Positions 1,033 through 35,842 of a stretch of DNA of 36,215 bases are shown here, piece by piece. Made by a program: the position numbers and the translations under genes. The notes under the pieces are model-generated. The model did no database searches and was not told where the DNA came from. It saw only the letters and a list, made by a program, of their open reading frames with translations. The DNA comes from Promethearchaeota archaeon (GTDB lineage Archaea > Asgardarchaeota > Lokiarchaeia > Sigyniarchaeales > SOKP01), in NCBI GenBank assembly GCA_016839765.1, contig JAEOTP010000039.1, positions 1-36,215 on the forward strand. Direction: 5' to 3'. How positions within the stretch are numbered: position 1 is the stretch's first letter; each line of letters opens with the position of its first letter.

Positions 1033-2889
1033 ATGGAATTAGGGTATAGAGGAAATATCTTAAGAGTTAATCTTTCAAGTGATAAAATCTCAATTGAACG
1101 GCCAGATGAAATTTTTTATAGGAAGTATATAGGAGGGGAGGGATTTATTGCATATTATCTCCTTAAAGAAGTGCCTAAGGGTGTAAATCCCCTTAATTAC
1201 AAAAACAATTTAATTTTCGCTAATGGTCCTTTAACTGGAACTAGTATTCCTTGTACTGGAAGAAATAGTATAGGCGCAAAATCTCCATTGACTGGGGGGT
1301 TTGGAGAATCTGAAGTAGGTGGATATTGGGGAGCTGAGTTGAAGCATGCTGGATTTGATGCGGTGATAGTTGAAGGAAAAGCTAATAAACCAGTATATCT
1401 CTCCATCCAAGATGAAGAAATTGAGATTAGAGATGCCAGCCACTTATGGGGAAAATCTACTGGAGAGACACAAAAAGATATCATTCGAGAACTTGATGAT
1501 AAATATATCCGTGTAGCTTGCATTGGTGTTGCTGCTGAAAATTTAGTAAAATATGCTTGTATCATAAATGATTATAGAAATGCAGCAGGACGAACAGGAA
1601 TGGGAGCTGTTATGGGTTCAAAAAATTTAAAGGCGATAGCTGTTAGAGGACATAATAAACCAAAAGTAAATAATAAAGAAAAGTTACGGGCAATTTTAAA
1701 AGAGAGTTATGAAACATTTAAAGAATATAGCCAATTTTTTACTTTTGGAACTGGAGGAAATCGAATGGAAGAATTTGCATTATCAGGTAATCTTCCTACG
1801 AGAAATTTTAGGGATGGAGAATTTAAATACGCAAAAGAAATAGATCCTGCTATTATTAGTGAAAAAATTAATTTAGGAAGAGATACTTGTTATGCTTGCC
1901 CCATTCGATGCAAAAAAGTTGTAAACATTTCTAATCCAATTAATATTGATCCTTTATATGGGGGGCCAGAATATGAAACTATCGCTGCATTTGGTTCTAA
2001 TTGTGGTACAAATGATATAGTAGCAATATCCAAAGCAAATGAAATCTGTAATAAAACTTCATTAGATACAATTTCAGCAGGAGTAGCTATTAGTTTTGCA
2101 ATGGAATGTTATGAAAATAAAATATTAACTGACGAAGATACTAATGGATTAAAACTAAATTTTGGTAACAGTCAAGCTATGTTATCTTTATTGGAAAAGA
2201 TTGTAAATCGTGAAGGACTAGGTGATATTCTTGCTGAAGGTGTTAAAAAAGCTGCTGAAAAAATTGGAAAAAACTCCCAAAAGTTTGCAATTCATGTAAA
2301 AGGTCAAGAAGTTCCCATGCATGAACCACGTCTAAAGCAAGGAATGGGTATTGGTTATGCTCTATCACCAACTGGTGCTGAACATATGGCTAATCTACAT
2401 GATACAGCAATAGCTAACAAGGAGCGAATAAAAAACTTCGCTTCTTTTAATATATTCGACGCACTTACTTTAGATGACTTAAGTGCTAAAAAAGTCAAAT
2501 CAGTAATATCCTTTACTAATTGGCGTGTTGTTGAAAATTCACTCCTTTTCTGCTTCTTTAGTCCATATACAATGAACCAAGAAAATAATTTATTAAAAAC
2601 TGTTACGGGTTGGGATACATCTACTTGGGAATTAATGAAATATGGAGAGAGAATAACAACTATGGCTAGAGCTTTTAATATACGAGAAGGATTTAATAAA
2701 AATGATGATTGGTTACCAGAGAGGTTTTTTGAGCCGCATACAACAGGTGCATTAGCAGAAAAGCCAATAAATTCAGACAAATTTAAGAATGCAAGAGACA
2801 TTTATTACAAAATGATGGGATGGACAGAAGATGGTATACCAACTAAAATGAAGCTTGAAGAACTAGACATCGAATGGGTAAAAACCTAA
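1033..2889 (+). CDS. aor: Tungsten-dependent aldehyde:ferredoxin oxidoreductase family protein
   Basis: At 618 residues this is full length for the family. Such enzymes oxidise aldehydes to carboxylic acids, or run in reverse, with ferredoxin as electron partner and a tungsto-bispterin cofactor plus one [4Fe-4S] cluster. The N-terminal domain is classic: GYRGNILRVNL, then YIGGEGF, then NGPLTGT and a GAKSPLTGG stretch. Cluster ligands are C286, C289, C293 (CYACPIRC) and a late Cys at about 507 (LLFCFF). GPEYET at 311-316 is the usual motif after the cluster. The enzyme is cytosolic. The exact substrate cannot be told, and other AOR-family subtypes are possible. It stands alone and is convergent with the PEBP gene, 12 nt away. 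The start is ATG, close to a TATA box. Confidence 0.93.
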   Translation: MELGYRGNILRVNLSSDKISIERPDEIFYRKYIGGEGFIAYYLLKEVPKGVNPLNYKNNLIFANGPLTGTSIPCTGRNSIGAKSPLTGGFGESEVGGYWGAELKHAGFDAVIVEGKANKPVYLSIQDEEIEIRDASHLWGKSTGETQKDIIRELDDKYIRVACIGVAAENLVKYACIINDYRNAAGRTGMGAVMGSKNLKAIAVRGHNKPKVNNKEKLRAILKESYETFKEYSQFFTFGTGGNRMEEFALSGNLPTRNFRDGEFKYAKEIDPAIISEKINLGRDTCYACPIRCKKVVNISNPINIDPLYGGPEYETIAAFGSNCGTNDIVAISKANEICNKTSLDTISAGVAISFAMECYENKILTDEDTNGLKLNFGNSQAMLSLLEKIVNREGLGDILAEGVKKAAEKIGKNSQKFAIHVKGQEVPMHEPRLKQGMGIGYALSPTGAEHMANLHDTAIANKERIKNFASFNIFDALTLDDLSAKKVKSVISFTNWRVVENSLLFCFFSPYTMNQENNLLKTVTGWDTSTWELMKYGERITTMARAFNIREGFNKNDDWLPERFFEPHTTGALAEKPINSDKFKNARDIYYKMMGWTEDGIPTKMKLEELDIEWVKT

Positions 2890-8167: not shown

Positions 8168-9199
8168 TCATTCTTCATTTAGAATATAATTTAAAATAAC
8201 ATGTGTCCTACAAACTTTACCACCAACATTTTTAGCGAATTTTTCACTTACTTTAAGATCTCCAGCTATAGGACCACCAGCATATCTTATCTTTTTCTCC
8301 CAAGCTTGAAGAGATGTTGCTCCATACATTAATAAACCTAATCTTTTTCCTCTATGTTCTGGTTTTACTGCTAGTGTAAGAGGTATGCATGAATCATAAT
8401 TCCCTTTTTCATCTTTTCTAAAAGGATTTGGTATGAAACATCCACAAGCCACAATTTCATTTGTTGGTTTATATCTAACAAAATAAATCATGAAATTATA
8501 GCCATAATCAAAAACATATTCAGCATAATTATCAAATAAATTAGGATCTCTAGGGGCAACTTGAGCAGATTCAGGTAAATTTTCAAATTGTATCTTTAAA
8601 AAGATTGGTTTTAATCTCATTAATTCATCAAAATCTTCAGGATTAAAATATTCATAATCACTGAAATCTAAATTTTTTATTTCCCATGGATTTATTTTTA
8701 AAAAGTGGCCTTCCCATGTATTTTGTATGTTATATATAGAAAACCCTTTTCTTATAAATATTCTCTGGTATATTGGAGGGTTTACTGGAGCTATTGGGAA
8801 TAAATTAGAAATGCTTTTTTTTTGCATAAATCCCCAACCAAAGATAATACCTGGGATATTAATTGGGCCCTTGATTATTTTAAAATGATTTATTTTTCCA
8901 AAAAGTATCAATTTATCAATAAGATAATTAATCTTTACTGGATTATGATTAATTACTCCGAAATATCCAAAGTATAAAATATCAGGAGTTTTATGGTAAA
9001 CCAATACGATTCCAGTAGGATTTCCGGCTTCTAAAAGTAGAATCGCTTTTGCGTGAAAAGTTTTAAAATCTCTTATCATATATTTATGAAATTCTGGCCA
9101 AATTGGTATATTTGTGCCAATATATAAATTTTTTAAAATATCATTTAAATCATCTAATATTCTTATAGTCAATTCATTTCTCAAGTGTATAAGAGACAT
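8168..9199 (-). CDS. GNAT-fold acyltransferase-like protein, probable tandem domain
   Basis: This 343-residue protein has a C-terminal GNAT domain with an acyl-CoA pyrophosphate loop (motif A) at 277-292: AVKPEHRGKRLGLLMY, with R283-G284-K285-R286-L287-G288. The N-terminal half (about 10-165) looks like a second, degenerate GNAT unit. It holds KGPINIPGIIFGWGF and NPPIYQR...GF, similar in style to the YghO-like group. The protein would transfer an acyl group from acyl-CoA (or another activated donor) to an amine, in the cytosol. It lies between the second GNAT gene (69 nt upstream) and the ThiF-like gene (80 nt downstream), which suggests one transcription unit acting on a common substrate. 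Substrate unknown. Confidence 0.8.
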   Translation of the reverse strand: MSLIHLRNELTIRILDDLNDILKNLYIGTNIPIWPEFHKYMIRDFKTFHAKAILLLEAGNPTGIVLVYHKTPDILYFGYFGVINHNPVKINYLIDKLILFGKINHFKIIKGPINIPGIIFGWGFMQKKSISNLFPIAPVNPPIYQRIFIRKGFSIYNIQNTWEGHFLKINPWEIKNLDFSDYEYFNPEDFDELMRLKPIFLKIQFENLPESAQVAPRDPNLFDNYAEYVFDYGYNFMIYFVRYKPTNEIVACGCFIPNPFRKDEKGNYDSCIPLTLAVKPEHRGKRLGLLMYGATSLQAWEKKIRYAGGPIAGDLKVSEKFAKNVGGKVCRTHVILNYILNEE

Positions 9200-9268: not shown

Positions 9269-10528
9269 CTACTCAAATTTTATTAAAGAATCAAAATAAT
9301 CTCCGTCCATTGATGGTAATGAATTTAAATTATCTAAAAGTTCATTTGTTTCAGGAATTATTTTAATATTCTTATCTATAACTCCTTTAAAGTAATTAAA
9401 AACTATTTTATCTTCAAAGCGATCATTTTCTTTATTATATTTCCAAGAAGGAACATACCCTCTTGGTATAAAACCTGCATTATAAAATAATTTTTGATGA
9501 GAAGGTTTATAAGAAGAGACAAAACATTCGGAGTAATTAAAATCCATATCTTCAATTATTTCTTTTAATTTTTCTATGAATACATATAATTCTTCCAGAT
9601 CTTCAATATTATATTCAATTTTCTCAATATTCTTGCTGTAAGGGTTAAGAAAGAATTTAAAATAAGAATCTTTATTTTTTATGAAAAATCTTATTTTTTG
9701 AAAACCAAATTTATCTTCTTTTGTCTTTCTATCAACTATAACCTTGATATCTTTTATTTTGTTTCTATCAAGTGTAAGTTTAGGATTCTCAACGATAGGA
9801 AGCCCCAATTGATATCTCCTATTCGAATAGCTGTAACAATTTAATACTTGTCTAATAATCTTAGGTTTTTTATCAGATCGATATTCTTTTAACAGGTTTT
9901 TATTGAAGATAATGTGTAATATATCAGATTCAACTTTATTAAAGAAAATATCTTTATTTGGGAGAAAGGCAATTGGTTTCATGCCAATTAACGATGTAAA
10001 AAATTGGGAAATTGCTTCATTAGTACGCATTTCCCCGTACCATAACATGATTTTTTCTTTATATTTTCGCCATAAATATATTATACAACCAATAAACGCC
10101 TTGAAAATATCAATAGTTTTATGATACTGCTTTTTAATCATAAAACCATGAAGAAATGCTCTTTTTTCATTGAATTCCAAATCCGCGCCAAAGCAACCTA
10201 CAATTTCATTTGCTGGTGACTTAAATATAAACCATTCATAATCAGGATGGATAATCATATCTTTTATGGATTCAATATCTTCCAAGTGTTTATAAGGGTA
10301 CGTTCCTCTGTATATTTCTTTAAAAATATTAGCTATTTCTTCCGAATCTTCTGGTTTAGCTAATTCAACTATTGGACATATTTTTTCAGACTTATAGTAG
10401 AAATCTAATTCAAAATCAAGATTTAATATCTTCTTAAGATCTAAATTTGAGAGATATTGAAATTTATCTAAAAACTCATCAACATTAATGATTTCTTTTT
10501 TTTTGAGACTTATGCTATTTGATACCAA
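9269..10528 (-). CDS. GNAT-family protein with two acyltransferase-like halves
   Basis: This 419-residue protein has an N-terminal GNAT-like region at about 54-190: AKPEDSEEIANIFKEIY, then WFIFKSPANEIVGCFGADL and a HGFMIKKQYH strand. A second region at about 230-385 ends in SSYKPSHQKLFYNAGFIPRGYVPSW, a pattern common at the end of GNAT folds (Q-x-x-F-x-x-x-GF). A clear Q/RxxGxG/A loop is not visible in either half, so activity is uncertain. The gene is first in the group that continues to the other GNAT and the ThiF-like gene. The start is TTG at 10528, preceded by AAAGGAT a few bases upstream. No in-frame ATG exists until deep inside the domain. Confidence 0.72.
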   Translation of the reverse strand: MVSNSISLKKKEIINVDEFLDKFQYLSNLDLKKILNLDFELDFYYKSEKICPIVELAKPEDSEEIANIFKEIYRGTYPYKHLEDIESIKDMIIHPDYEWFIFKSPANEIVGCFGADLEFNEKRAFLHGFMIKKQYHKTIDIFKAFIGCIIYLWRKYKEKIMLWYGEMRTNEAISQFFTSLIGMKPIAFLPNKDIFFNKVESDILHIIFNKNLLKEYRSDKKPKIIRQVLNCYSYSNRRYQLGLPIVENPKLTLDRNKIKDIKVIVDRKTKEDKFGFQKIRFFIKNKDSYFKFFLNPYSKNIEKIEYNIEDLEELYVFIEKLKEIIEDMDFNYSECFVSSYKPSHQKLFYNAGFIPRGYVPSWKYNKENDRFEDKIVFNYFKGVIDKNIKIIPETNELLDNLNSLPSMDGDYFDSLIKFE

Positions 10529-19546: not shown

Positions 19547-22500
19547 CTAATTAGTTCCAATTTTTGCTTTACTCACTTTACCTGGGATTTTCGATTCTCC
19601 AACCTTTTTGATTATTTCTGTAAATTCTGATATGCGTTCTGAGAATTGTTTCCCCTCACTCGCGGAAATTTGATGGATTTGAATTCTTTCTTCTTCAATT
19701 CCAATCATCTTTAATAATTTCTGAAGGTTCTCCAATCGAAGATATGCATTTTCATTCCCACTTATATAGTGACAATCTCCAAGGTGACACCCTGCTATAA
19801 ATACACCATCCGCTCCATCCAAAAATGCCTTTAAAATATAACTCTTAGACATACCTCCTGAGCACATGACTCTAATAATTCTTATATTTGGAGGATACTG
19901 ATATCTACTTACGCCTGCTAGATCGGCACCGGCGTATGAGCACCAATTACAGAGAAATGCGACTATTCTTGGTTCCCAAACCTTTTCTTCCGATTTAACT
20001 GCTTCAGCAATCATTGGTTTTATCTGATCATTTCCAAAATGACTCATAGATATAGCAGAAACCGGACATTCTGCGAAACAAGTTCCACATCCTTTACAAA
20101 GAGCCTTAATTACGTGAGCTTTCTTTATATCATTATTATATAAACCCATTTGTTTAGTAGTCTCGACTAACTCAATGGCGTTATAGGGGCAAATTTCGGC
20201 ACATTGACCACAACCTATACATTTTTCTTCATTAACATTGGAAGTTACACCCTCAGTCTCTAAAAATTCTTTTGATAATATTGTCATTGCTCTAGCTGCT
20301 GCAGACTTCGCTTGAGCTATACTTTCAATTATATTTGCCGGTGCTCGTGCAGTTCCACATAAAAAGATTCCATCTGTTGCGAAATCAGAAGGTCTCAACT
20401 TAACATGAGCTTCTAAGAAGAAATTATCCTCATTAAGAGGGACTTTAAGTAATTTAGCTAACTCACTATTTCCCTCAGGAGCTACAATTCCTGCACTTAA
20501 AACAACCAAATCCGTGTTAAGTTTAATTTCTCCTATATCTGACTTGTTTAGTATAAGTTGTAAGATATTATCTTTTGCAATAACTTTGGGTGGTTGTGTT
20601 TCATCAAATCTAATAAAGAGAATGCCCTTAGCTCTAGCGAGATTATAGTATTTCTCCTTAAAACCATAAGTCCTAATATCACGAAATAAAATGGTAATAT
20701 TAATATCTGGGTTAATCTCTTTTGCTTTTAACGCATTCTTTATTGCTTCTGCACAGCACATCCTACTGCAATAAGGATTTTCTTCGTTTCTAGAACCTAT
20801 ACATTGGATCATAACAATTGATTTCAGTTCCTTTATTTTTTTTTCCTCCATAAAAAGAATTTCTTCGAGTTTTGATTGAGTTATAATTCTCTCATCGTAA
20901 TTAAATAAGAACTCGTTATCTTTAGGAGTATATTCCTCTGTTCCTGTCGCTACAATAATAATTCCATGATTCAAATTCTCTGTTTCATTTTCTCTTTCAG
21001 AAATTATTTCTGTGGTAAAATTACCTAGATAGCCTGTTACGGAATTAATGTTAGCTTCGAGAAAAACATTAATGAATTCATGATTATTGACTCTTTCTAC
21101 TAAATTACTAATTAATTTTTGGACATCATTGTTTTCTAAAGTTTGAAAAATTTTATTTGAGAAACCACCCAACCTATTGCTTTTTTCAACTAAATATGTT
21201 GTATACCCCTGATCTGCTAAATTTAAAGCTGCTGTCATTCCAGCTACACCGCCTCCAATAACCAATCCTTTATTAATTACTTCTACTCTTTGCTCTTGTA
21301 AAGGAACTAAATTTCTTGCTTTTGCGACAGACATTCTAACCAAATCTTTAGCTTTCTGTGTAGCTTCTTCTGGTTCATGCATATGTACCCAGGAACATTG
21401 ATCCCTAATATTTGCTAAATCAAAAAGATATTTATTTAAACCTGCTTCTCTTATTGTTGCTTGGAATAACGGTTCATGCGTTCTAGGCGTGCAAGAAGCA
21501 ACGATTACTCTATTTAGGTTATGTTTCTTTATCTTTTCTTTAATAATCGTTTGGGTATCAGCTGAGCAAGTATATAAGTTTCTTTCAGCATATACTACAT
21601 CTGGTAATTTGCTTGCATATTCAACTACTTCAGGAACATCAACAACACCTCCGATATTAATTCCGCAATGGCAAACAAAAACTCCAATTCGAGGTGGTTC
21701 TCCACTAACATCGATTTCATCATAATATTTCTTTTCAGGAACTAAAGTATTTCTAACATCAGATAGAAGAACATTTACGGCTCCTGCGGTTGCACTAGCT
21801 TCAATAACAGTTTCTGGAATATCCTTGGGTTCTTTAAACGTTCCACATACATAAACACCTGGTCTTGAAGTCTCAATTGGATTAAAATTAGTTGTTTTAC
21901 AGAAGTCATATTCATTTAATCCAACATTTAATTTTTTTGCTAATGCTATAGCGTTTGGATTAGGTTGTAATCCTACAGATAAAATAACCATGTTAAAAAT
22001 TTCTTCAACAATTTCTCCTTCATCAGTTTCGTACCTAATTTTCAAGTCATTGGATTCGGCAATTTCTTTAATACTAGAAATTCTACTTCTAATATACCTT
22101 ATGCCATAATCACTTTTAGCTCGTTCAATGTATTTATCAAAATCTTTTCCGTATGCTCTTATATCCATGCTAAAAATGGTAAGTTCAAGAGTGTTTAAAT
22201 GTTCTTTAGCTATAACAGCTTCTTTTGTAGTATACATACAACACACTGAAGAGCAGTATTCATGATTTATTTTTTTATCTCGAGAACCAACGCATTGCAA
22301 AAATGCTATTTTTTTCGGATGTGTGTTATCCGAAGGACGAATTACTTCTCCCTTAAATGGGCCAGAAGCATTGAGAATACGTTCGAAACCTATACTTGAT
22401 ATAACATTTGGATATTCACCATATCCATAAATATTTCCTATTTTTGGTTCATATTCATCAGATCCAAGGGCTAATATTACAGCCCCAATATTGATAGAGA

Positions 22501-24493
22501 TTATTTCATCAGCTAAATTATGATCAATTGCGTTTGCTTGGCAAGTTCTCACACATTCGAAGCACTCGCAGCAAGATCCACAATTAAGACAGCGGTTTGC
22601 TTCTTTAATAGAAGAATCTTCATCCATAGTGCTAGCAACTTCATTAAAATTATATATCCGTTCTTCGGGTAAACATATTGAGAACTCACCTCTATCTTGA
22701 CACGCTATATTATCAATGTCTTGAATATCAGCAATAGTAACTACATCCTCTACTTTATAATCAGAGATGGTTTCTTTTAAATCGGAAATTTCTTCTCCTT
22801 TTAGATATTTCTCCATCACTATAGCTGCTTTATTTCCTGTCGCTATTGCTTCTATAGCAGAGGCAGCACCAGTGATGATCTCTCCTCCAGCGAAGACACC
22901 AGGGATATTAGTTTCAAAAGTTGTTTGGTCTGCTTCAATATAACCCCATTTATTAATATTTAATTTCTTCTGAGAAGCAGATTCTATTAATGAACAATCT
23001 GATTCTTGTCCTACTGAAATTATTAAAGTATCGATCTTCATCTTGAATTCAGAACCTTCAATTGCGATAGGTCTTCGCCTTCCAGATTCATCAGGTTTAC
23101 CAAGTTTCATTTGCACGCATTCAATTTCAGAAATCTTAACTCCCTTATCACTGGCATCTTTAGTGGGTACGGTTAAAAATTTAAATTCAATGCCCTCTTC
23201 TCTTGCTCTTTTTATTTCTTCCCTTGAAGCAGGCATTTCTTGTTCAGATCGTCTATAAATAATTATTACTTTTTTTGCACCTAATCTTATGGATGAGCGA
23301 GCAACATCCATTGCAACATCTCCTCCGCCAACTACTCCTATAATTTTATCTTTAAGATTAGGTACATTTCTTGATAAATTTAATTCTCTTAGAAAATCAA
23401 CACCATATAATACATCTTCAATATCTTCACATTGAAAATCCATTTTACGACTATTATGAAGGCCTATAGCTATAAAAATAGCTTTATAACCTTGGTTTTT
23501 TAAATCTTCTAAGGTTAAATCAGAACCTACAGGTGTATTGGTTTTTATTTCAACGCCCAGTTTCTTAATATATTCAATATCTCTTTCTAAGATTTCTGGT
23601 GGCAATCTATAATCAGGGATTCCCAGTCTTAGCATTCCACCCGCAACAGGTTCTTTTTCAAAAATTGTCACGGAATACCCACGTTTTGCAAGGTGATAAG
23701 CAACAGTAAGTCCCGTTGGACCTGAACCAATAATAGCAACTTTTTCTTCCTTTTTATCTTCTAAGAATGTGATTTCTTCTTCAAGATTATCCATAACATA
23801 ATCTGCTACAAATCTTTTTAAGCCACAAATATTAATAGGATCATCTATTTCCGCTCTATTACATTCTAATTCACAAAAATGAGGACAAATTCGTCCTATA
23901 ACAGAGGGAAGGGGACATCTCTCTCTAATTAAGTTCAAGGCTTCTTGATAACTTTTTTTGGAGATTAAAGCAACATATCCTTGGGCATTTACATGAGCAG
24001 GACAAGCATCCACGCAGGGAGGAGTTCCTCGTTTTTCTATTTGTACTTTAAATGGTACCGCCTGAGGGAACTGAAGATATATCGCTTTTCTATTATTCAA
24101 TTTCTGATTAAATTCATCAGGAATTTGAACAGGGCACTCTTGAATGCAATCCCCACAACCCGTACATTTATCTTCATAGATATATCTTGTTCTTTTATTA
24201 ATTGTAGCATTAAAATTACCTGCCTTACCTTCCAGATTTATGATATCTGCGTATGTAATCAATTCAATATTTGGATGTCTATCTACAGCAACGAGTTTTG
24301 GGGCTAAAATACACATAGAACAGTCATTTGTTGGGAAAGTTTTATCTAATTGAGCCATAACTCCTCCAATGGATGGTTCCTTCTCAACAAGATAAACCTT
24401 GAGACCAGCATCTGCTAAATCTAATGCTGCTTGACAACCCCCTATTCCTGCTCCAACAATCATTACAGCCCCAACTTTATTCTTTTCGCTCAA
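19547..24493 (-). CDS. Giant fusion: HdrA with nested NADPH dehydrogenase, second HdrA, and MvhD
   Basis: This 1648-residue chain begins with TTG after GGAGG, 7 nt upstream. Module 1, HdrA-like: FAD loop GAGIGG (14-19), TFPTNDCSMCILAPKLV (52-68), cluster C110/113/116/120. Inserted after FPQAVP (143-148) is a GltD/NfnB-like NADPH module, 155-634: cysteines 160, 164, 203, 207, 211; FAD loop GSGPTG (256-261); NADPH loop VVGGGDVAMD (388-397). HdrA sequence resumes at CLNCGSCCECFECVRTC (635-651) and runs to ~920. Module 2, 935-1410: CHCGINIGG, CTPRTHEP, GGGVAG, without the mid-domain ferredoxin. Then come two ferredoxin motifs (1425-1435, 1466-1476) and an MvhD domain (1505-1635). It likely joins NADPH oxidation to ferredoxin and HdrD reduction in one chain. 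Domain reading is strong; reaction direction is inferred. Confidence 0.92.
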   Translation of the reverse strand: MSEKNKVGAVMIVGAGIGGCQAALDLADAGLKVYLVEKEPSIGGVMAQLDKTFPTNDCSMCILAPKLVAVDRHPNIELITYADIINLEGKAGNFNATINKRTRYIYEDKCTGCGDCIQECPVQIPDEFNQKLNNRKAIYLQFPQAVPFKVQIEKRGTPPCVDACPAHVNAQGYVALISKKSYQEALNLIRERCPLPSVIGRICPHFCELECNRAEIDDPINICGLKRFVADYVMDNLEEEITFLEDKKEEKVAIIGSGPTGLTVAYHLAKRGYSVTIFEKEPVAGGMLRLGIPDYRLPPEILERDIEYIKKLGVEIKTNTPVGSDLTLEDLKNQGYKAIFIAIGLHNSRKMDFQCEDIEDVLYGVDFLRELNLSRNVPNLKDKIIGVVGGGDVAMDVARSSIRLGAKKVIIIYRRSEQEMPASREEIKRAREEGIEFKFLTVPTKDASDKGVKISEIECVQMKLGKPDESGRRRPIAIEGSEFKMKIDTLIISVGQESDCSLIESASQKKLNINKWGYIEADQTTFETNIPGVFAGGEIITGAASAIEAIATGNKAAIVMEKYLKGEEISDLKETISDYKVEDVVTIADIQDIDNIACQDRGEFSICLPEERIYNFNEVASTMDEDSSIKEANRCLNCGSCCECFECVRTCQANAIDHNLADEIISINIGAVILALGSDEYEPKIGNIYGYGEYPNVISSIGFERILNASGPFKGEVIRPSDNTHPKKIAFLQCVGSRDKKINHEYCSSVCCMYTTKEAVIAKEHLNTLELTIFSMDIRAYGKDFDKYIERAKSDYGIRYIRSRISSIKEIAESNDLKIRYETDEGEIVEEIFNMVILSVGLQPNPNAIALAKKLNVGLNEYDFCKTTNFNPIETSRPGVYVCGTFKEPKDIPETVIEASATAGAVNVLLSDVRNTLVPEKKYYDEIDVSGEPPRIGVFVCHCGINIGGVVDVPEVVEYASKLPDVVYAERNLYTCSADTQTIIKEKIKKHNLNRVIVASCTPRTHEPLFQATIREAGLNKYLFDLANIRDQCSWVHMHEPEEATQKAKDLVRMSVAKARNLVPLQEQRVEVINKGLVIGGGVAGMTAALNLADQGYTTYLVEKSNRLGGFSNKIFQTLENNDVQKLISNLVERVNNHEFINVFLEANINSVTGYLGNFTTEIISERENETENLNHGIIIVATGTEEYTPKDNEFLFNYDERIITQSKLEEILFMEEKKIKELKSIVMIQCIGSRNEENPYCSRMCCAEAIKNALKAKEINPDINITILFRDIRTYGFKEKYYNLARAKGILFIRFDETQPPKVIAKDNILQLILNKSDIGEIKLNTDLVVLSAGIVAPEGNSELAKLLKVPLNEDNFFLEAHVKLRPSDFATDGIFLCGTARAPANIIESIAQAKSAAARAMTILSKEFLETEGVTSNVNEEKCIGCGQCAEICPYNAIELVETTKQMGLYNNDIKKAHVIKALCKGCGTCFAECPVSAISMSHFGNDQIKPMIAEAVKSEEKVWEPRIVAFLCNWCSYAGADLAGVSRYQYPPNIRIIRVMCSGGMSKSYILKAFLDGADGVFIAGCHLGDCHYISGNENAYLRLENLQKLLKMIGIEEERIQIHQISASEGKQFSERISEFTEIIKKVGESKIPGKVSKAKIGTN

Positions 24494-24577: not shown

Positions 24578-25786
24578 CTAAACAAGGAAAAGTAGTTCTC
24601 CAATAAAGTTTGCCAAATCTTTAACTTTAATCTTATTTTTTAAATTTTTGTGTTCCTCATCTAAAGAGGGTTCATTAAGATAACAATCGAAATGGGTTAG
24701 GCACTTCGGACAAGGCACAATTAAATATTCTGCTCCTGTTTCTATTGCTTCATTTATACGATTTTGTCTAAAAGTACGAGTTGATTCATTACATCCCATA
24801 AAAGCCGAAACTCCACAACAATTCGCGTCATCTCTAATATTTTCCATTTCAATTAATTCAACTCCCGGAATTTTCTTAAGTAATTCCCTCGGAGCATCAT
24901 ATAATTTTCCTCCCATACGCCCTAATCGACATGCATCGTGATATGTAACTTTAATTTTAGTTTCTTGGGGAAATCTAACATTTTCAAGGATTTTTTCCTT
25001 TAGAAAAAACTCGGAGAAATGCATAATCTTAAAATTGAAATCTTTTATGACTTTAGGATAATCAAATTTCCATATTCTATATCCTTCAGCACATCCTAAG
25101 ATAATTGTTTTAACACCCGCGTCTCTGTAAAGTTTAACATTATATTCGGCAAGTTTTTTAAACGTATTATTATCCCCTTTACCCCATAAAACATCATGCC
25201 CACAACACTTTTCATTTAATACGACTGGTACTATATTTGCCTCGTTTAATAAACCAATAATAGTTTTTGGTATATTTATATAATTGATATCTGATTTATA
25301 AAAAATAGTGTCCATAATAGGTAAACAACCAATAAAAAATGCAATTTCACCAGAATCTGTTGTTTTTAAAGAAGAATTTTCTAAAAATTCTAATTTATTT
25401 GGATGCAATTTACCATCTGACATAATTTTTGAGATGAGCGGAAATATTTCATCATGGGTCTCACAATGAATGATTTTGTCTATTTGATTTTGATTATGGA
25501 TAGCGATTTTTCTCAATTCTAATATTAATTCTGGAAATCTAACACCAACCTTTTCTTGTGTCATGGGACAATAATTTGAACAAAGACCACAAGTAAGACA
25601 ATCCCATATATTATGTTTCTCTAAAACTTCATTTATTGGTGAAAAAAGTAAATCTACAATTAATTTTTGGGGATAGAAAACATCTATATGAGAAAGTGGA
25701 CATACATTAACACAGCGATTACAATTATAGCAATAATTAGCCATATCATTTATCTTTTTAATTATATCCCCTGAAATGTTGTTCAC
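24578..25786 (-). CDS. HdrD-type (HdrC-HdrB fused) iron-sulfur protein
   Basis: This 402-residue protein has an HdrC-like N-terminus with two ferredoxin motifs (C19/22/25/29 and C63/66/69/73) and an HdrB-like C-terminus with two CCG domains. The first CCG has C154, C194-C195 and C232 but lacks the final Cys (GCAEGY). The second is complete: C286, C323-C324, C359 and C362. This is the layout of HdrD, GlcF and related disulfide or hydroxyacid reductases. It lies 84 nt upstream of the giant HdrA gene on the same strand, so it is its likely catalytic partner. The start is GTG at 25786 with no good ribosome site; ATG at 25744 is an alternative just before the first cluster. Confidence 0.87.
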   Translation of the reverse strand: MNNISGDIIKKINDMANYCYNCNRCVNVCPLSHIDVFYPQKLIVDLLFSPINEVLEKHNIWDCLTCGLCSNYCPMTQEKVGVRFPELILELRKIAIHNQNQIDKIIHCETHDEIFPLISKIMSDGKLHPNKLEFLENSSLKTTDSGEIAFFIGCLPIMDTIFYKSDINYINIPKTIIGLLNEANIVPVVLNEKCCGHDVLWGKGDNNTFKKLAEYNVKLYRDAGVKTIILGCAEGYRIWKFDYPKVIKDFNFKIMHFSEFFLKEKILENVRFPQETKIKVTYHDACRLGRMGGKLYDAPRELLKKIPGVELIEMENIRDDANCCGVSAFMGCNESTRTFRQNRINEAIETGAEYLIVPCPKCLTHFDCYLNEPSLDEEHKNLKNKIKVKDLANFIGELLFLV

Positions 25787-26002: not shown

Positions 26003-27253
26003 TTACTTCTTCTTTGTTCTTTTATTTTTCTTCTCAATCAATTCTTTTAATTCATCAAGAACTGCTGTCCTCGCCTTTCTAGCCTCCTTGCGTGAAACTA
26101 TTTTTGATGAACTGCTAGTTTTTTGAGAAGTTAATGGATTAGGTGAAGAATATTCTGGAGAGGGCATTGAAGAAGTTAATCCAGTAGTTTTTAAATCTTC
26201 ACCCTCAATTAGTCTAATTCTATTATTTAATTCATTATATTGATCCATTACAACTTCTGATAATCGAATTATTCCATTCAAAGTTGATTCTAAAATTGAT
26301 GCCATTCCTTCTAGTTTATAATCTGATAAGGTAGCAGTTTTTTCCATAGTTTCTTTAAGATATCGTGAAAACTTCGGTTCTTTTGCTAGCAATGAATAGA
26401 TAGAACTTAAATAGATCTCATAATCAAATTTTTTTCTATTTTTGAAAATGCTCTTAATTAAATCTTTTACAACTTCTATATTAAGTAATACTTCTGGATA
26501 ATCTTTTATGTCAGGATCATATTTATGTATAAAAACCAATATGTAAGGTTTTTCTTCAAGTTTTTCGATGTTCTCAATAATTTTCTCGAAATATTTAATA
26601 CTTTCATCAAATTTTTCTGGATCTTGAAGATCAATAACATAAATTATCAAATCGACTTTTAAAAAATATTTCTGAGGATCTTGAAGATAAATTTTTCTAT
26701 ATTCTTGTTGACCACCAAAATCCCATATTATTAATACTAAATCAGGAGTAATAATTTCCTGACGTTCAACTCCTTTTGTTGGATTTAACTTAGCTAAATC
26801 TTTTATTCCAATTTGGCCACCAAATTTCTTTAGTATTGTTGTCTTGCCAGCATTAGCTAACCCAACGACGATAACTTTTTGCTCTTTTTTTAGGTATGAG
26901 ATTGATTCTTCTTTTATTTTATAAATAACCTTACTTATAGTCACTGCTTTTTTTACTTTATCTTCGATTTCTAAATCCGTTTGCAGTATATGCTCAATTT
27001 TTTTCCTAGTTTTATTATCCTTATACAAAATTTCGAAAGGTTTTTCAGGATCCAAAGAAGTAAATTGGCCTATGCTATTAATTTTAAATAACCTACTTAT
27101 TAAATCTACATCAGCATCGCTTAAAAAGTTAAAATTAGAAATAGGAAAAGTTATAACATCTTCAATTGAATCTAATTTATCGAAATTTATTACTTTGGTT
27201 TTATCTAAAAACTTAGAAATTAACTTAATTTTTTCACTCTGCCCTTTTGGCAT
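26003..27253 (-). CDS. Arf/Rag-like small GTPase with long N- and C-terminal extensions
   Basis: This 416-residue protein has a central Ras-superfamily GTPase domain at ~125-300. G1 is GLANAGKTT (131-139), G2 Thr159 in PTKGVE, G3 WDFGGQQEYR (177-186), G4 HKYD (243-246) and G5 SSIYS (283-287). G1 and WDxGGQ are Arf-like, while HKxD and SSI are closer to Rag/Gtr. The N-terminal ~120 residues are a helical domain with a helix-hairpin-like repeat. After the G domain come a helical stretch (~300-350), a Ser/Pro linker (~357-385) and a very basic tail. GTPases of this kind, expanded in number, are a hallmark of Asgard archaea. No lipidation motif or roadblock domain was recognised. Role unknown; perhaps membrane or scaffold signalling. 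Confidence 0.88.
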   Translation of the reverse strand: MPKGQSEKIKLISKFLDKTKVINFDKLDSIEDVITFPISNFNFLSDADVDLISRLFKINSIGQFTSLDPEKPFEILYKDNKTRKKIEHILQTDLEIEDKVKKAVTISKVIYKIKEESISYLKKEQKVIVVGLANAGKTTILKKFGGQIGIKDLAKLNPTKGVERQEIITPDLVLIIWDFGGQQEYRKIYLQDPQKYFLKVDLIIYVIDLQDPEKFDESIKYFEKIIENIEKLEEKPYILVFIHKYDPDIKDYPEVLLNIEVVKDLIKSIFKNRKKFDYEIYLSSIYSLLAKEPKFSRYLKETMEKTATLSDYKLEGMASILESTLNGIIRLSEVVMDQYNELNNRIRLIEGEDLKTTGLTSSMPSPEYSSPNPLTSQKTSSSSKIVSRKEARKARTAVLDELKELIEKKNKRTKKK

Positions 27254-31902: not shown

Positions 31903-33021
31903 TTAGCTTTCTAATTTTTTCTTTATCACACAATATACTTCCCTTCTCTCACCAATTCCAAAACAAGCATTGCAATTAGTACATAGTGAGGGGGAGAGAT
32001 CGCCGCTTTTCCATCGATCAGCTAAATCAGGTTCGTATATAAAAGGTCTACTCAATGATATAAAATCTGCAATTTTTTCTTCTAATAAATTATCTGCTGA
32101 TATAGGGTTTCTTATACCGCCCATAAGAATCAATGGACAATCTTTCATTATTGGCTTGAGCGCTTTAGCGTTTGGTAAATAGTAAGTTCCATCATCAGGT
32201 GAACTAAAATTTACGCTTGGAAATGATTTATTATTGGTTATCCTTAAACTTGTACGCCCAGAGGTGGGTTCAATAGCATCAAAACCTATTTCTACTAAAC
32301 GTTTAGCGATATCTACTCCCTCTTCTAAATCTAGACCCTTTCCCTTCCCTAAAAAATCTTGAGTAATTAGTTTAATTGTTATTGGAAATGCTTTTCCTAA
32401 ATTATCCCTGATCTGATTGTAAATATCAATAACAATTTTTAATCGGTTAAGAGTAGAACCCCCATATTCATCATTTCGTCTATTTGTAAATGGAGAAATA
32501 AAGTCACTCAATAAGTAAGCATGTCCTGCGTGCAATTGTATCATGTCATAACCACACTCATAAGCTCTGAAACCTGCCTCAGCAAATTTCCTTGTTATTT
32601 CTTTAATTTCTTCATTTTTCAATTCTCGACAAATTTTTTTTGTTAGGGGATCTCTAATTGGTGATGGACCAACGGTTTCTAATTTACGACTTATGGCATT
32701 ATTACCTGTATGCCCTATTTGAGCAGCCACCTTAACATCTGAATATTCGTGAATAGAATTTACTAATTTTTTTTGTCCAGGTATATACGAATCATCATAA
32801 ATTCTTGTCATGCGAGTGGTTTGAGCTCCTATTGGATCCACGGCAATATATCCAGTTATTATTAATCCGATACCTCCCTTTGCTAATTCATCATAGAATT
32901 CGATAAGCGAATCAGTTACATAACCATCCTCAGTTGCTCTTGATTCCCAAGTAGCTGAACGAACAAGCCGATTTTTAATATTTACTTCACCAATTTTACC
33001 TGGACTAAAAAGATATTTCAA
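31903..33021 (-). CDS. Old-yellow-enzyme-type NADH:flavin oxidoreductase
   Basis: This 372-residue TIM-barrel FMN protein is of the OYE / 2,4-dienoyl-CoA reductase N-terminal type. Marks are LFSPGKIGEVNIKNRLVRSAT at the N-terminus, AAQIGHTG, LHAGHAYLLSDFISPFTNRR (catalytic His and barrel core) and the NDEYGGS motif. At the C-terminus are four cysteines, C-x2-C-x2-C-x9-C (LCTNCNACFG...YC), which would hold a [4Fe-4S] cluster as in dienoyl-CoA reductase. The NAD(P)-binding C-terminal domain of the full-length enzymes is absent. It lies 25 nt after the DapA-Fae gene in the same direction, so probably one transcript. Start TTG at 33021 with a strong AGGAGGAG about 12 nt upstream. It would reduce an activated C=C bond; substrate unknown. 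Confidence 0.88.
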   Translation of the reverse strand: MKYLFSPGKIGEVNIKNRLVRSATWESRATEDGYVTDSLIEFYDELAKGGIGLIITGYIAVDPIGAQTTRMTRIYDDSYIPGQKKLVNSIHEYSDVKVAAQIGHTGNNAISRKLETVGPSPIRDPLTKKICRELKNEEIKEITRKFAEAGFRAYECGYDMIQLHAGHAYLLSDFISPFTNRRNDEYGGSTLNRLKIVIDIYNQIRDNLGKAFPITIKLITQDFLGKGKGLDLEEGVDIAKRLVEIGFDAIEPTSGRTSLRITNNKSFPSVNFSSPDDGTYYLPNAKALKPIMKDCPLILMGGIRNPISADNLLEEKIADFISLSRPFIYEPDLADRWKSGDLSPSLCTNCNACFGIGERREVYCVIKKKLES

Positions 33022-33046
33022 TTCTATAATAATCTCCTCCTAATTA

Positions 33047-34534
33047 TTATGGATCATTTCTAAATGGATGTCGTGCACTTTCTGCGTTCTCGATACCATC
33101 ATCTACAGAGGGTAAACCTTCCATTGCTTTTCGAATCGCATTGCGAGTTGCTTTATAATTATTAATAAATATTCTTTTTCTTGCGCTAGCACTTGGATGC
33201 ACAAACACATTTACGATTATCACAATATCATCTGCTAATTCTTTAGGAAGAATTCCATCTTCAACACATTGCATTACTGCCTTCGCTATTGCTGCTTGAG
33301 CAGGTCCATATGTTAAACTGGCATGCCGAAGTGATATTGGACGAACTGTAGGAATCATAATTGTAGGTGGTTTTACTTGCATATTAGGTTCAAGTATGAC
33401 TTGAAGTCCTTCCCGTCCTTCTTCTGGATTTGTTAAAGCTTGAGCATATGCATTTCCCACAGGACCATCTTTCCTACCAATTAGAAGATCAATATGTGCA
33501 AGTTCAACACGATTACCTACAAGCGATTCCCCTACTTTTAAATCAAAATCTGTGATTTTTTCTGGTGTAATTCCAACAGCATAGAATCGGCTTGTAAGTG
33601 GCTTTTCTCCAAATTCAAACTTTAATTCTGTCTTTTGAATTAAACCTAACTTTTCAAGCTCAACTCGTAACTCATCTTTTATTTCATAAGAAAGCGTATC
33701 ACCTAAAACAATTGGTTGTCGGGTTTTACCTACTGGAACTTTCATCATATTTAAACAAGATTTAACGCCTAGTGCTCCTGAATTTATTAAAAGTCTTGCT
33801 AATTTTTGAACTCGCTTTTGAAGTATCTGTGCTTCTTCTAAACGATTATTTTTTACATGTTCATATATTTCTAGCCAAATTTTAGGGAATACATTTGCAG
33901 AACCTAGAATGCATCCAGCGGCACCTCCCGCTAAGGCACCCAAGACATTCTCATCCCATCCAATCATGACTGAAATTTTATCACTAACTTTTTCTAATAA
34001 GGCAGAAAAATATTTATAATCTCCACTAGAATCTTTTATAGCTACAATATTTTCGATATCTACCAGATCTTCAACCACTGTCCATGGTAGCTCTACTCCA
34101 GTACAGACTGGAATATTATATAGCACAATAGGAATTTCTGTTTTTTCTGCTATTGTAAAATAGTGATCGTAAAGACCTTTAGCTTTAGGTTTTAAATAAT
34201 AAGGAGTAACAATTAATACAGCATCCGCTCCAATATCTGTTGCTGCTTTAGTTGCATCGACTACTAATTTAGTGCCAGTTTCTCCTGTACCTGCAATAAC
34301 AGGAACCCTGCCATTAGTTTCATCTACAACGATCTCTATTACTTTTAATCTTTCTTCAAAAGTCATATTAACAAATTCTCCGGTTGTTCCAGAAGGCACT
34401 AAACCTGTCACCCCTTGTTCAATTAGATGATTAACTAAATTCCTCAACATATCCTCATTAATTGACTCATCTTTATTGAAAGGTGTAACCATAGCTGGCA
34501 TAACTCCAGTTGGACGAAAATCAAACTTTCCCAT
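33047..34534 (-). CDS. DapA-family aldolase fused to formaldehyde-activating enzyme (Fae)
   Basis: This is a 495-residue fusion. Residues ~5-300 are a DapA/N-acetylneuraminate-lyase TIM barrel: GTTGE (49-53), Tyr139 in YNIP and the Schiff-base Lys167 in AIKDSSGD. The Arg that marks true dihydrodipicolinate synthase (YNxPxRT) is Cys144 here (YNIPVCTG), so another 2-oxoacid aldolase is likelier. Residues ~315-495 are a whole Fae domain: GESLVG, AHIDLLIG with catalytic-type His347, GPVGNAYAQAL, PTVRPISLRHASLTYGPAQ, and EGLPSVDD...RHPF. Fae joins formaldehyde to tetrahydromethanopterin, giving methylene-H4MPT. The fusion suggests that the barrel releases or uses formaldehyde, for example pyruvate + formaldehyde from 4-hydroxy-2-oxobutanoate. 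Domain call strong; reaction inferred. Start ATG. Confidence 0.93.
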   Translation of the reverse strand: MGKFDFRPTGVMPAMVTPFNKDESINEDMLRNLVNHLIEQGVTGLVPSGTTGEFVNMTFEERLKVIEIVVDETNGRVPVIAGTGETGTKLVVDATKAATDIGADAVLIVTPYYLKPKAKGLYDHYFTIAEKTEIPIVLYNIPVCTGVELPWTVVEDLVDIENIVAIKDSSGDYKYFSALLEKVSDKISVMIGWDENVLGALAGGAAGCILGSANVFPKIWLEIYEHVKNNRLEEAQILQKRVQKLARLLINSGALGVKSCLNMMKVPVGKTRQPIVLGDTLSYEIKDELRVELEKLGLIQKTELKFEFGEKPLTSRFYAVGITPEKITDFDLKVGESLVGNRVELAHIDLLIGRKDGPVGNAYAQALTNPEEGREGLQVILEPNMQVKPPTIMIPTVRPISLRHASLTYGPAQAAIAKAVMQCVEDGILPKELADDIVIIVNVFVHPSASARKRIFINNYKATRNAIRKAMEGLPSVDDGIENAESARHPFRNDP

Positions 34535-34555
34535 TTTATTTTTAGCCTCTTAATG

Positions 34556-35842
34556 TTATATTGATTTATGCAAATTATTTGCTGCAATAAAACTTAACCC
34601 TTTTTCAGTAAGAGCTTTAGCTGTGTGATTAACTGCTCTGTATCTATCAAGATGGTTTATACGTAGAAAATCCCATAATCCTGCTTTCATTAGTTCTTCT
34701 TTAGACAAAAAATATTCAAGAATATCTGTAGGGTGTTCTCTACTTTCCTCAACCTCTATATCTCCACCCTCGTGTTTAGCACTTATATTTTTAACTTTTT
34801 CTGCTAATTCTAATAATTCATCCCTCCGATCATAAGGTTGTCTTACTATACTCTTCCAAGTCTCGGTTATATGATGTTCTAATCTAACCACATCTTCAAA
34901 ATCAAAATTTTTACGAATATATGATGATAATTCAATAGTTTCATTATTAACCGAATTAGCAAGATTAAAGCCTATGAGAGGACTTGAGCCATCTTCGCGA
35001 GCAAACAATTTTGCAGTTAATAAAGTCCAAAGACAAGAATAGGGATTATCATTGCCCATATAAACACTAATCTTGAATTCGTTATTAATTCCTAATTTAT
35101 AAATGAAATATCCAAGTAAAACAGTGCCAGGATTTACGTTAAGCACTTGTTTTATTCCATAATTAGTATAGTAATAGAGAAATTCATCGATCCATTTTAA
35201 AGCAAAATCATTAGGTTGCCCCACACCACCAAAATATCCGGTTATGGTTTCAGGTCCACCTAAATGCACATTTACAGGAAGTCCATCTGGTCCTGGAGCA
35301 GTTCCTTTTGTATCTAATGTCTCAACCCACGTAGAGCCAATAATTTGCATTGCTGCAGCCATGGCAATTAAATCTCCATCTTTCTCCTGTTCCTTCATAT
35401 TTCTAACCCGAATAATCCTTCCAGGAACTAATTGTTGAGTATCAATGGCATCTTTAACAATTGCAATAAGAAATGGAAAATATTGACAGGCAGATAACTC
35501 TAAAGTAACTGCAAAATCCTCTCTGAATTTCATTTCTGATGCTTTCTCTCCAAGAATTTTCTTTCGATATTCAGGTATACTGATAAAAGCATTAATATCT
35601 CTCTGATTAATTAGCCATTCAAGATCTTTTATATAATTTGGATTTACTTTTTCTAGTTTTTGCATTAAATTTTCGACTTTACCAGCCTCTTCAGCTTTTC
35701 TATTGATTTCTTCTATACCACCATATTTATCTAGCAATTCTAAAAGATTAGTAATTAATGGATTACTCTCATCTAAAAGAAAAGCATTAACTGCCTTTAA
35801 GGCCTTATCTGAAATTTCAAGCTTTTTCCTCAAATCTTTCAT
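34556..35842 (-). CDS. Unrecognised 428-residue cytosolic protein, operon partner of DapA-Fae
   Basis: No family was recognised. It lacks signal peptide, membrane helices and nucleotide-binding loops. The first ~110 residues are helical and charged. The middle part looks like an enzyme barrel or lobed domain with conserved-looking glycine and polar blocks: NVHLGGPETITGYFGGVGQPND near 190-211, LNVNPGTVLLGYF, YMGNDNPYSCLW, GFNLANSVN, and RLEHHITETWKSIVRQP. A His/Asp/Glu-rich segment that could bind metal follows (KHEGGDIEVEESREHP). It is first in the unit; the DapA-Fae ATG comes 21 nt after its stop. A ribosome site AAAGGTAAT precedes the ATG. Genomic context makes an enzyme of C1 or aldehyde chemistry most likely. 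Confidence 0.75.
   Translation of the reverse strand: MKDLRKKLEISDKALKAVNAFLLDESNPLITNLLELLDKYGGIEEINRKAEEAGKVENLMQKLEKVNPNYIKDLEWLINQRDINAFISIPEYRKKILGEKASEMKFREDFAVTLELSACQYFPFLIAIVKDAIDTQQLVPGRIIRVRNMKEQEKDGDLIAMAAAMQIIGSTWVETLDTKGTAPGPDGLPVNVHLGGPETITGYFGGVGQPNDFALKWIDEFLYYYTNYGIKQVLNVNPGTVLLGYFIYKLGINNEFKISVYMGNDNPYSCLWTLLTAKLFAREDGSSPLIGFNLANSVNNETIELSSYIRKNFDFEDVVRLEHHITETWKSIVRQPYDRRDELLELAEKVKNISAKHEGGDIEVEESREHPTDILEYFLSKEELMKAGLWDFLRINHLDRYRAVNHTAKALTEKGLSFIAANNLHKSI

Follow-up and report, generated by a model that had tools for sequence, protein, structure and literature searches.

The protein at the centre of this analysis, here called c0, is a 428-residue protein of an unnamed family, encoded near the end of a 36,215-base contig (JAEOTP010000039.1, hereafter the window) from a Promethearchaeota archaeon. 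Our reading, which we hold at a probability of roughly 0.45, is that an undescribed module has c0 as its core enzyme, joins general metabolism at 4-hydroxy-2-oxobutanoate (HOB, or 2-keto-3-deoxytetronate) and runs in the catabolic direction. Held at the same level, the wider form of this reading is that anaerobic archaea and bacteria would have HOB as a natural central metabolite, with three non-homologous exit routes serving c0 or its replacement, a protein called d0; the module would be nature's counterpart to the synthetic homoserine cycle. The assembly to which the contig belongs is 3.3 Mb in size, and its nearest relatives are Lokiarchaeota metagenome-assembled genomes (MAGs). Relatives of c0 were gathered from 80 named contigs and 97 related genomes, and the surrounding genes were called and clustered; the genomes compared are mostly MAGs, and the loci in the linkage counts share ancestry.

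On the minus strand c0 is transcribed first, then a fusion of a DapA-type aldolase with Fae, then an OYE-like gene, and the contig breaks off 373 bases upstream of c0. The placement of the three genes on one strand with gaps of 21 and 25 nt, as given in the original prediction made from the window's letters, is confirmed. The features are as follows.

34556-35842, minus strand: c0 (428 aa, ATG start), unnamed family; helical N-terminal domain at residues ~1-103 and TIM barrel at ~107-420 (AlphaFold2)
35210..35311, minus strand: c0 residues 178-211, near-invariant loop after barrel strand 3 (TKGT..DG..N.HLGGPETITGYFGGVGQPN), from the alignment of homologues
33047-34534, minus strand: DapA-Fae fusion gene (495 aa, ATG start), adjoining c0 in 29 loci
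33656..34513, minus strand: DapA-type class I pyruvate aldolase domain, fusion residues 8-293 (PF00701, E 8.7e-77)
33062..33535, minus strand: Fae domain, fusion residues 334-491 (PF08714, E 4.9e-56; TIGR03126)
31903-33021, minus strand: OYE-like flavin oxidoreductase (372 aa, TTG start; PF00724 Oxidored_FMN, E 9.8e-55)

The fusion is the gene adjacent to c0 in all 29 clustered loci, the window included, that hold it near c0, and these loci span Lokiarchaea, Heimdall-type archaea and Bathyarchaeota. The pair lies on the same strand in 27 of the 29, mostly 6-28 nt apart, and is divergent in the remaining two, both from Bathyarchaeota. Within the Loki family the fusion was found, whole or in part, in 36/37 genomes that carry c0, against a partial trace in 3/24 genomes that lack it (Fisher p = 3e-12, not corrected for shared ancestry). 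Judged by linkage and co-occurrence, c0 and DapA-Fae are a strongly conserved pair, beyond chance. Homologues that are always separate, an outcome for which the original prediction had allowed, were not what we found, as the pair is kept across phyla. In Thorarchaeota and Borrarchaeum c0 is present and the fusion lies unlinked elsewhere in the genome. Thorarchaeota loci L201, L202, L203 and L205 contain two tandem DapA-Fae genes whose Fae domains carry deletions relative to the Loki type, and binding of tetrahydromethanopterin (H4MPT) may have been lost or changed in them. In two Loki genomes that lack c0, all that is left of the fusion is a C-terminal Fae remnant (G053:C1:697593-698048 and G054:C1:362621-362968, 95% identical), which suggests joint loss of the c0/fusion pair.

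The OYE-like gene does not belong to this conserved unit. It shares the strand, follows the fusion after 25 nt and is preceded by a strong Shine-Dalgarno sequence (AGGAGGAGA), all of which would suit a three-gene pathway; however, it accompanies the pair in the window and, outside it, only in L019, a relative at 97% identity, that is in 1/79 other loci. The conserved unit is therefore two of the three genes, the OYE was rejected as a lineage-specific neighbour, and a pathway that includes it is very improbable. The original proposal of an undescribed C1/aldehyde pathway thus survives in part: the partner genes of c0 do point towards C1/aldehyde metabolism and the first two genes travel together, whereas the third does not.

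Both domains of the fusion are complete as judged by Pfam and NCBIfam profile matches. The DapA domain scores 258 bits with PF00701 and 247 bits with TIGR00674 (cut-off 206). The Fae domain scores 188 bits with TIGR03126 (cut-off 118), keeps the AHIDL motif with its histidine, and is predicted to convert formaldehyde and H4MPT to methylene-H4MPT. The position aligned to Arg138 of E. coli DapA is Cys, Leu or Val in all aligned fusion members (YNIPVCTG). Arg138 binds the carboxylate of aspartate semialdehyde in DHDPS, and a fusion without its equivalent would have no DHDPS-like aldehyde site in its DapA domain. The fusion thus shares with DapA (DHDPS, PF00701) a full DapA-family aldolase domain but differs from it in this position and in carrying Fae, and the genome has other DapA-family genes. 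Like the known Fae and Fae-HPS fusions (PF08714, NF009833), it joins Fae to an enzyme that releases or uses formaldehyde; the partner here is a DapA-type aldolase, whereas that of Fae-HPS is hexulose-6-phosphate synthase. The window's genome encodes an additional, separate Fae in a 432-aa frame.

DapA enzymes form or cleave 2-oxo acids as pyruvate plus an aldehyde. Since the fusion lacks the DHDPS arginine and carries Fae, the aldehyde would most simply be formaldehyde and the 2-oxo acid most simply HOB, which is pyruvate plus one carbon and also the 2-oxo acid of homoserine. In Loki-type archaea the DapA domain would accordingly split HOB into pyruvate and formaldehyde, and the fused Fae would hand the formaldehyde directly to H4MPT, a direct transfer by which the toxic compound would be kept contained.

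A different partner accompanies c0 in Chloroflexota, where a PanB-type gene was found alongside it in 15 of the 16 c0 loci of a 301-genome survey; the c0 locus of a Bacillota MAG likewise holds one. These c0-linked copies score 295 bits with TIGR00222 (cut-off 207), above the panB equivalog threshold, and a higher-scoring canonical PanB is encoded elsewhere in all 11 of the Chloroflexota genomes tested that bear them. They form one group (12/13 at support 100/100, the thirteenth joining weakly at 86/58) and retain the D/D/K/E catalytic motifs, while the pocket segment GIGAG..CDGQ has become SLGSGPHAHGQ, a reading of the pocket that draws on the known PanB site and on a change in consensus, not on a structure. 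By these criteria the c0-linked gene is a second, diverged paralogue, here called PanB2, which scores as ketopantoate hydroxymethyltransferase yet differs from it in being a second copy with an altered pocket and a group of its own. PanB performs chemistry equivalent to that of DapA, with methylene-tetrahydrofolate (methylene-THF) and a 2-oxo acid, and a neofunctionalised PanB2 would carry out the step equivalent to that of DapA-Fae with tetrahydrofolate. In one Chloroflexota locus c0 is followed by genes for PurU (formyl-THF deformylase) and for a class III aminotransferase.

The third partner set is found in Heimdall-type Asgard archaea and Thermoplasmata. There c0 is flanked or followed by a class I/II aminotransferase, a homoserine dehydrogenase (HSDH; 428-435 bits against a PRK06270 cut-off of 373) and an aldehyde:ferredoxin oxidoreductase (AOR), and all three occur with c0 in 24 clustered loci. 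No DapA-Fae fusion was found in the tested genomes of this type, and no Fae of any kind in 14 fusion-less archaeal c0 genomes tested. At the level of gene content, DapA-Fae, PanB2 and the aminotransferase/HSDH/AOR set are shown to be interchangeable and mutually exclusive. In this third set HOB would be transaminated to homoserine, HSDH would convert homoserine to aspartate semialdehyde, and AOR, which normally oxidises aldehydes, would convert the semialdehyde to aspartate. A second AOR-family gene in the window (1033-2889, plus strand, 618 aa) falls into one cluster with the AOR found alongside c0 in Heimdall archaea.

With all three partner sets at hand, a role of c0 in pantoate or CoA synthesis, with PanB or DapA-Fae taking the place of PanB, is the least probable of the alternatives. 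PanB is indeed the usual neighbour of c0 in Chloroflexota. However, a separate canonical PanB is present in the PanB2 genomes tested and in the window's own genome, on which ground DapA-Fae was rejected as a PanB replacement, and neither HSDH nor AOR has a place in CoA synthesis.

DapA-Fae, PanB2 and the homoserine-handling set all fit HOB, which makes it the one metabolite common to the three, and we infer from this that HOB is their shared node. Because the C1 sets are single enzymes without a conserved aminotransferase, c0 would most simply touch HOB itself. The same observation bears on another possibility, that c0 releases homoserine from, for example, a sulfonium or lactone compound and that general aminotransferases yield HOB wherever no aminotransferase is linked. 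HSDH and AOR beside c0 would complete a route from homoserine to aspartate, as this requires, but some 45 Loki and Chloroflexota loci (~45) hold a C1 enzyme without a conserved aminotransferase, and we regard the possibility as improbable.

As to direction, c0 would make HOB or, less likely, use it. Production is favoured because AOR oxidises aldehydes and because Fae and PurU dispose of C1, and the catabolic direction is inferred on this basis. The reverse would be a C1-assimilating biosynthesis, in which DapA-Fae or PanB2 builds HOB from pyruvate and C1, or HSDH and the aminotransferase build it from aspartate semialdehyde, and c0 consumes it. Aldol reactions can proceed either way, and this is the direction taken by the synthetic homoserine cycle (PMC8879981). 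Loki genomes, moreover, contain H4MPT C1 enzymes such as the second Fae. AOR in the Heimdall/Thermoplasmata set nevertheless favours oxidation, and PurU beside c0 and PanB2 in one locus favours disposal of C1. Reduction of a free carboxylate is energetically hard. The reverse direction is therefore unlikely, although it is the most credible of the alternatives.

The c0 protein itself gave no match above curated cut-offs in Pfam or NCBIfam and, as a query alone, no sequence relative in the Protein Data Bank (PDB). Likewise, no Pfam match was found among 26 members of the family and no PDB sequence match with the family profile; the description of c0 as a protein of no recognised family therefore held. 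Homologues are present in Asgard archaea, Thermoplasmata, Bathyarchaeota, Chloroflexota, one Bacillota MAG and one Polaromonas plasmid. An alignment of 26 of them, each 62-79% identical to the window's c0, contains ~110 invariant columns. On this evidence c0 represents a highly conserved, many-phylum family of anaerobes, Asgard archaea included, that is without annotation.

An AlphaFold2 model built from 26 sequences (pLDDT 86.6, pTM 0.88) places helices at residues 1-103 followed by an eight-stranded TIM barrel, and a second model of the barrel alone agrees with it. Foldseek returned no match below 1e-3 in the PDB for either model, and VIA-align scores reach Z 11-12.7 against many unrelated TIM barrels. 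The modelled fold class is clearly a TIM barrel, and the further possibility that c0 would prove to match a well-known family did not come true. The Foldseek and VIA-align comparisons yielded only a generic TIM-barrel likeness. The loop at residues 178-211 is conserved in all homologues yet has a pLDDT below 50, the least certain part of the model, as would be expected if it becomes ordered upon ligand binding; it is probably a substrate or cofactor loop.

Several more specific identities were considered for the c0 barrel. Glutamate mutase E (1cb7, Z 11.4) gave one of the longest aligned stretches in the first VIA list but did not recur in the second, and no gene for a B12-binding subunit was seen nearby. 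Beta-keto-acid cleavage enzymes ranked high structurally; their zinc-binding HxH motif on strand 2, however, is RxR in c0. The U32 peptidase-like barrel of PDB 5d88 is, like c0, a TIM barrel and matched the full model with a Foldseek probability of 1.0, but its VIA Z of 11.5-11.9 over ~190 residues is tied by generic TIM barrels. Nor is there a significant sequence match between c0 and the U32 peptidase-like barrels. The alignment of c0 homologues contains no invariant Cys, which makes an iron-sulfur enzyme unlikely.

The gene immediately ahead of c0 in most Thorarchaeota loci (L042, L046, L052, L054, L060, L061, L069, L074, L075 and L081) encodes a small membrane protein, the S component of an ECF transporter (PF07155 in L052, the one tested). 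This component could bring in a substrate or a cofactor for c0.

In Asgard genomes that have the fusion but lack c0, a 312-aa protein, d0, adjoins DapA-Fae in 7 loci. In two Borrarchaeum-like genomes (L246 and L247) d0 occupies the slot that c0 holds in Borrarchaeum weybense (L029), near argininosuccinate synthase and lyase. In L246, the better covered of the two, the order is identical to that of L029: argininosuccinate synthase, lyase, a 180-aa protein, an ABC ATPase, d0 or c0, and a class III aminotransferase. The L246 genome also encodes a Fae domain elsewhere in a fusion-sized 502-aa frame (G647). An hhalign comparison of the c0 and d0 profiles gave E 1e-4 at a probability of 42-55%, in register, and the match can be followed further by eye through strand 1 (LEISA/RIEIS), strand 5 (FKISVYMGNDNP/FKVSVFAGHGSP) and strand 8 (AKHEGG/FKIEPGP), with Glu(b1), Arg(b2), Lys-x-Ser(b5) and Lys(b8) common to both. 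The two are probably distant homologues and, judged by the sequences and their positions, d0 can replace c0, for which it would substitute in the proposed module. With 420-450-aa frames resembling U32 proteins, the d0 profile gave only weak, partial matches. A d0-like 'U32 family peptidase' is encoded in an Enterobacter plasmid cluster (L207, 11980-12918) together with aminotransferase, 2-hydroxyacid-dehydrogenase-like, iron-containing redox enzyme and nucleotidyltransferase genes; this cluster looks biosynthetic.

The proposal that HOB is the node has to be weighed against several observations. Bacterial relatives of d0 (~35-42% identical) adjoin sugar ABC transporters and a galactonate-dehydratase-like enzyme, and their loci also hold a UlaG-like hydrolase and no other aldolase nearby. 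This context fits a 2-keto-3-deoxy-acid aldolase equally well, and c0 might then cleave such an acid and not make it. The c0 of the Polaromonas plasmid is 51% identical; nearby are TRAP, DapA, dehydrogenase and SDR genes, which fit no one scheme uniquely, and the DapA is an ordinary one that retains the arginine (YNVPGRT). The aminotransferase of Thermoplasmata and Heimdall archaea could act on aspartate instead of HOB. Lastly, no transporter or upstream enzyme common to all c0 lineages, which would name the precursor, was found among the loci compared.

These bacterial neighbourhoods lead to the remaining alternative, that c0 and d0 are themselves 2-keto-3-deoxy sugar acid aldolases or dehydratases, the common metabolite being a larger sugar acid and the C1 enzymes handling a by-product. 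It draws on the galactonate/gluconate-dehydratase-like enzyme, the UlaG-like hydrolase and the sugar ABC transporter beside the bacterial d0 relatives, and on the four barrel motifs that c0 and d0 have in common. However, HSDH and the aminotransferase are hard to place in such a scheme, PanB2 and Fae both indicate a single carbon, and at many sites that are otherwise invariant the sugar-linked d0 proteins depart from those of the Asgard group. We consider it unlikely, next in credibility after the reverse direction. With HOB as the node, the sugar-acid genes still suggest tetronate, a C4 sugar acid, or else a larger 2-keto-3-deoxy acid as a reasonable candidate substrate class for c0.

Elsewhere in the window, a 1648-aa protein (19547-24493, minus strand) combines a C-terminal FlpD domain with several flavin/ferredoxin domains of HdrA-like type; with the adjoining CCG-domain protein (24578-25786) it makes up a heterodisulfide-reductase-like complex. 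A 416-aa protein (26003-27253, minus strand) carries a Gtr1/Arf-like small GTPase domain after ~120 residues without an assigned family. Adjacent proteins of 343 and 419 aa (8168-9199 and 9269-10528, minus strand), next to a ThiF-family protein, have no Pfam match.

A review of formaldehyde metabolism presents the conversion of pyruvate and formaldehyde to HOB, and that of HOB to homoserine, solely within a synthetic cycle, which was built on promiscuous E. coli enzymes and in which HOB is termed non-native (PMC8879981). The steps proposed here are the same as those of the HOB aldolase and HOB aminotransferase in that cycle, but the proposed module would rely on conserved genes dedicated to it, with Fae fused to the aldolase and c0 as an additional enzyme. 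No description of a natural HOB pathway, of a DapA-Fae fusion or of an operon joining HSDH and AOR in Asgard archaea was found in open-access full text, subscription papers and preprints lying outside the search. The parts are known enzyme kinds; neither the c0 family nor the arrangement has a description in the open-access literature searched. If the proposal is true, there would be a C1/C4 pathway via a metabolite called non-native in the formaldehyde-metabolism literature. It would also account for the fusion of a pyruvate aldolase with Fae in Asgard archaea, and would provide dedicated HOB aldolases for synthetic methylotrophy.

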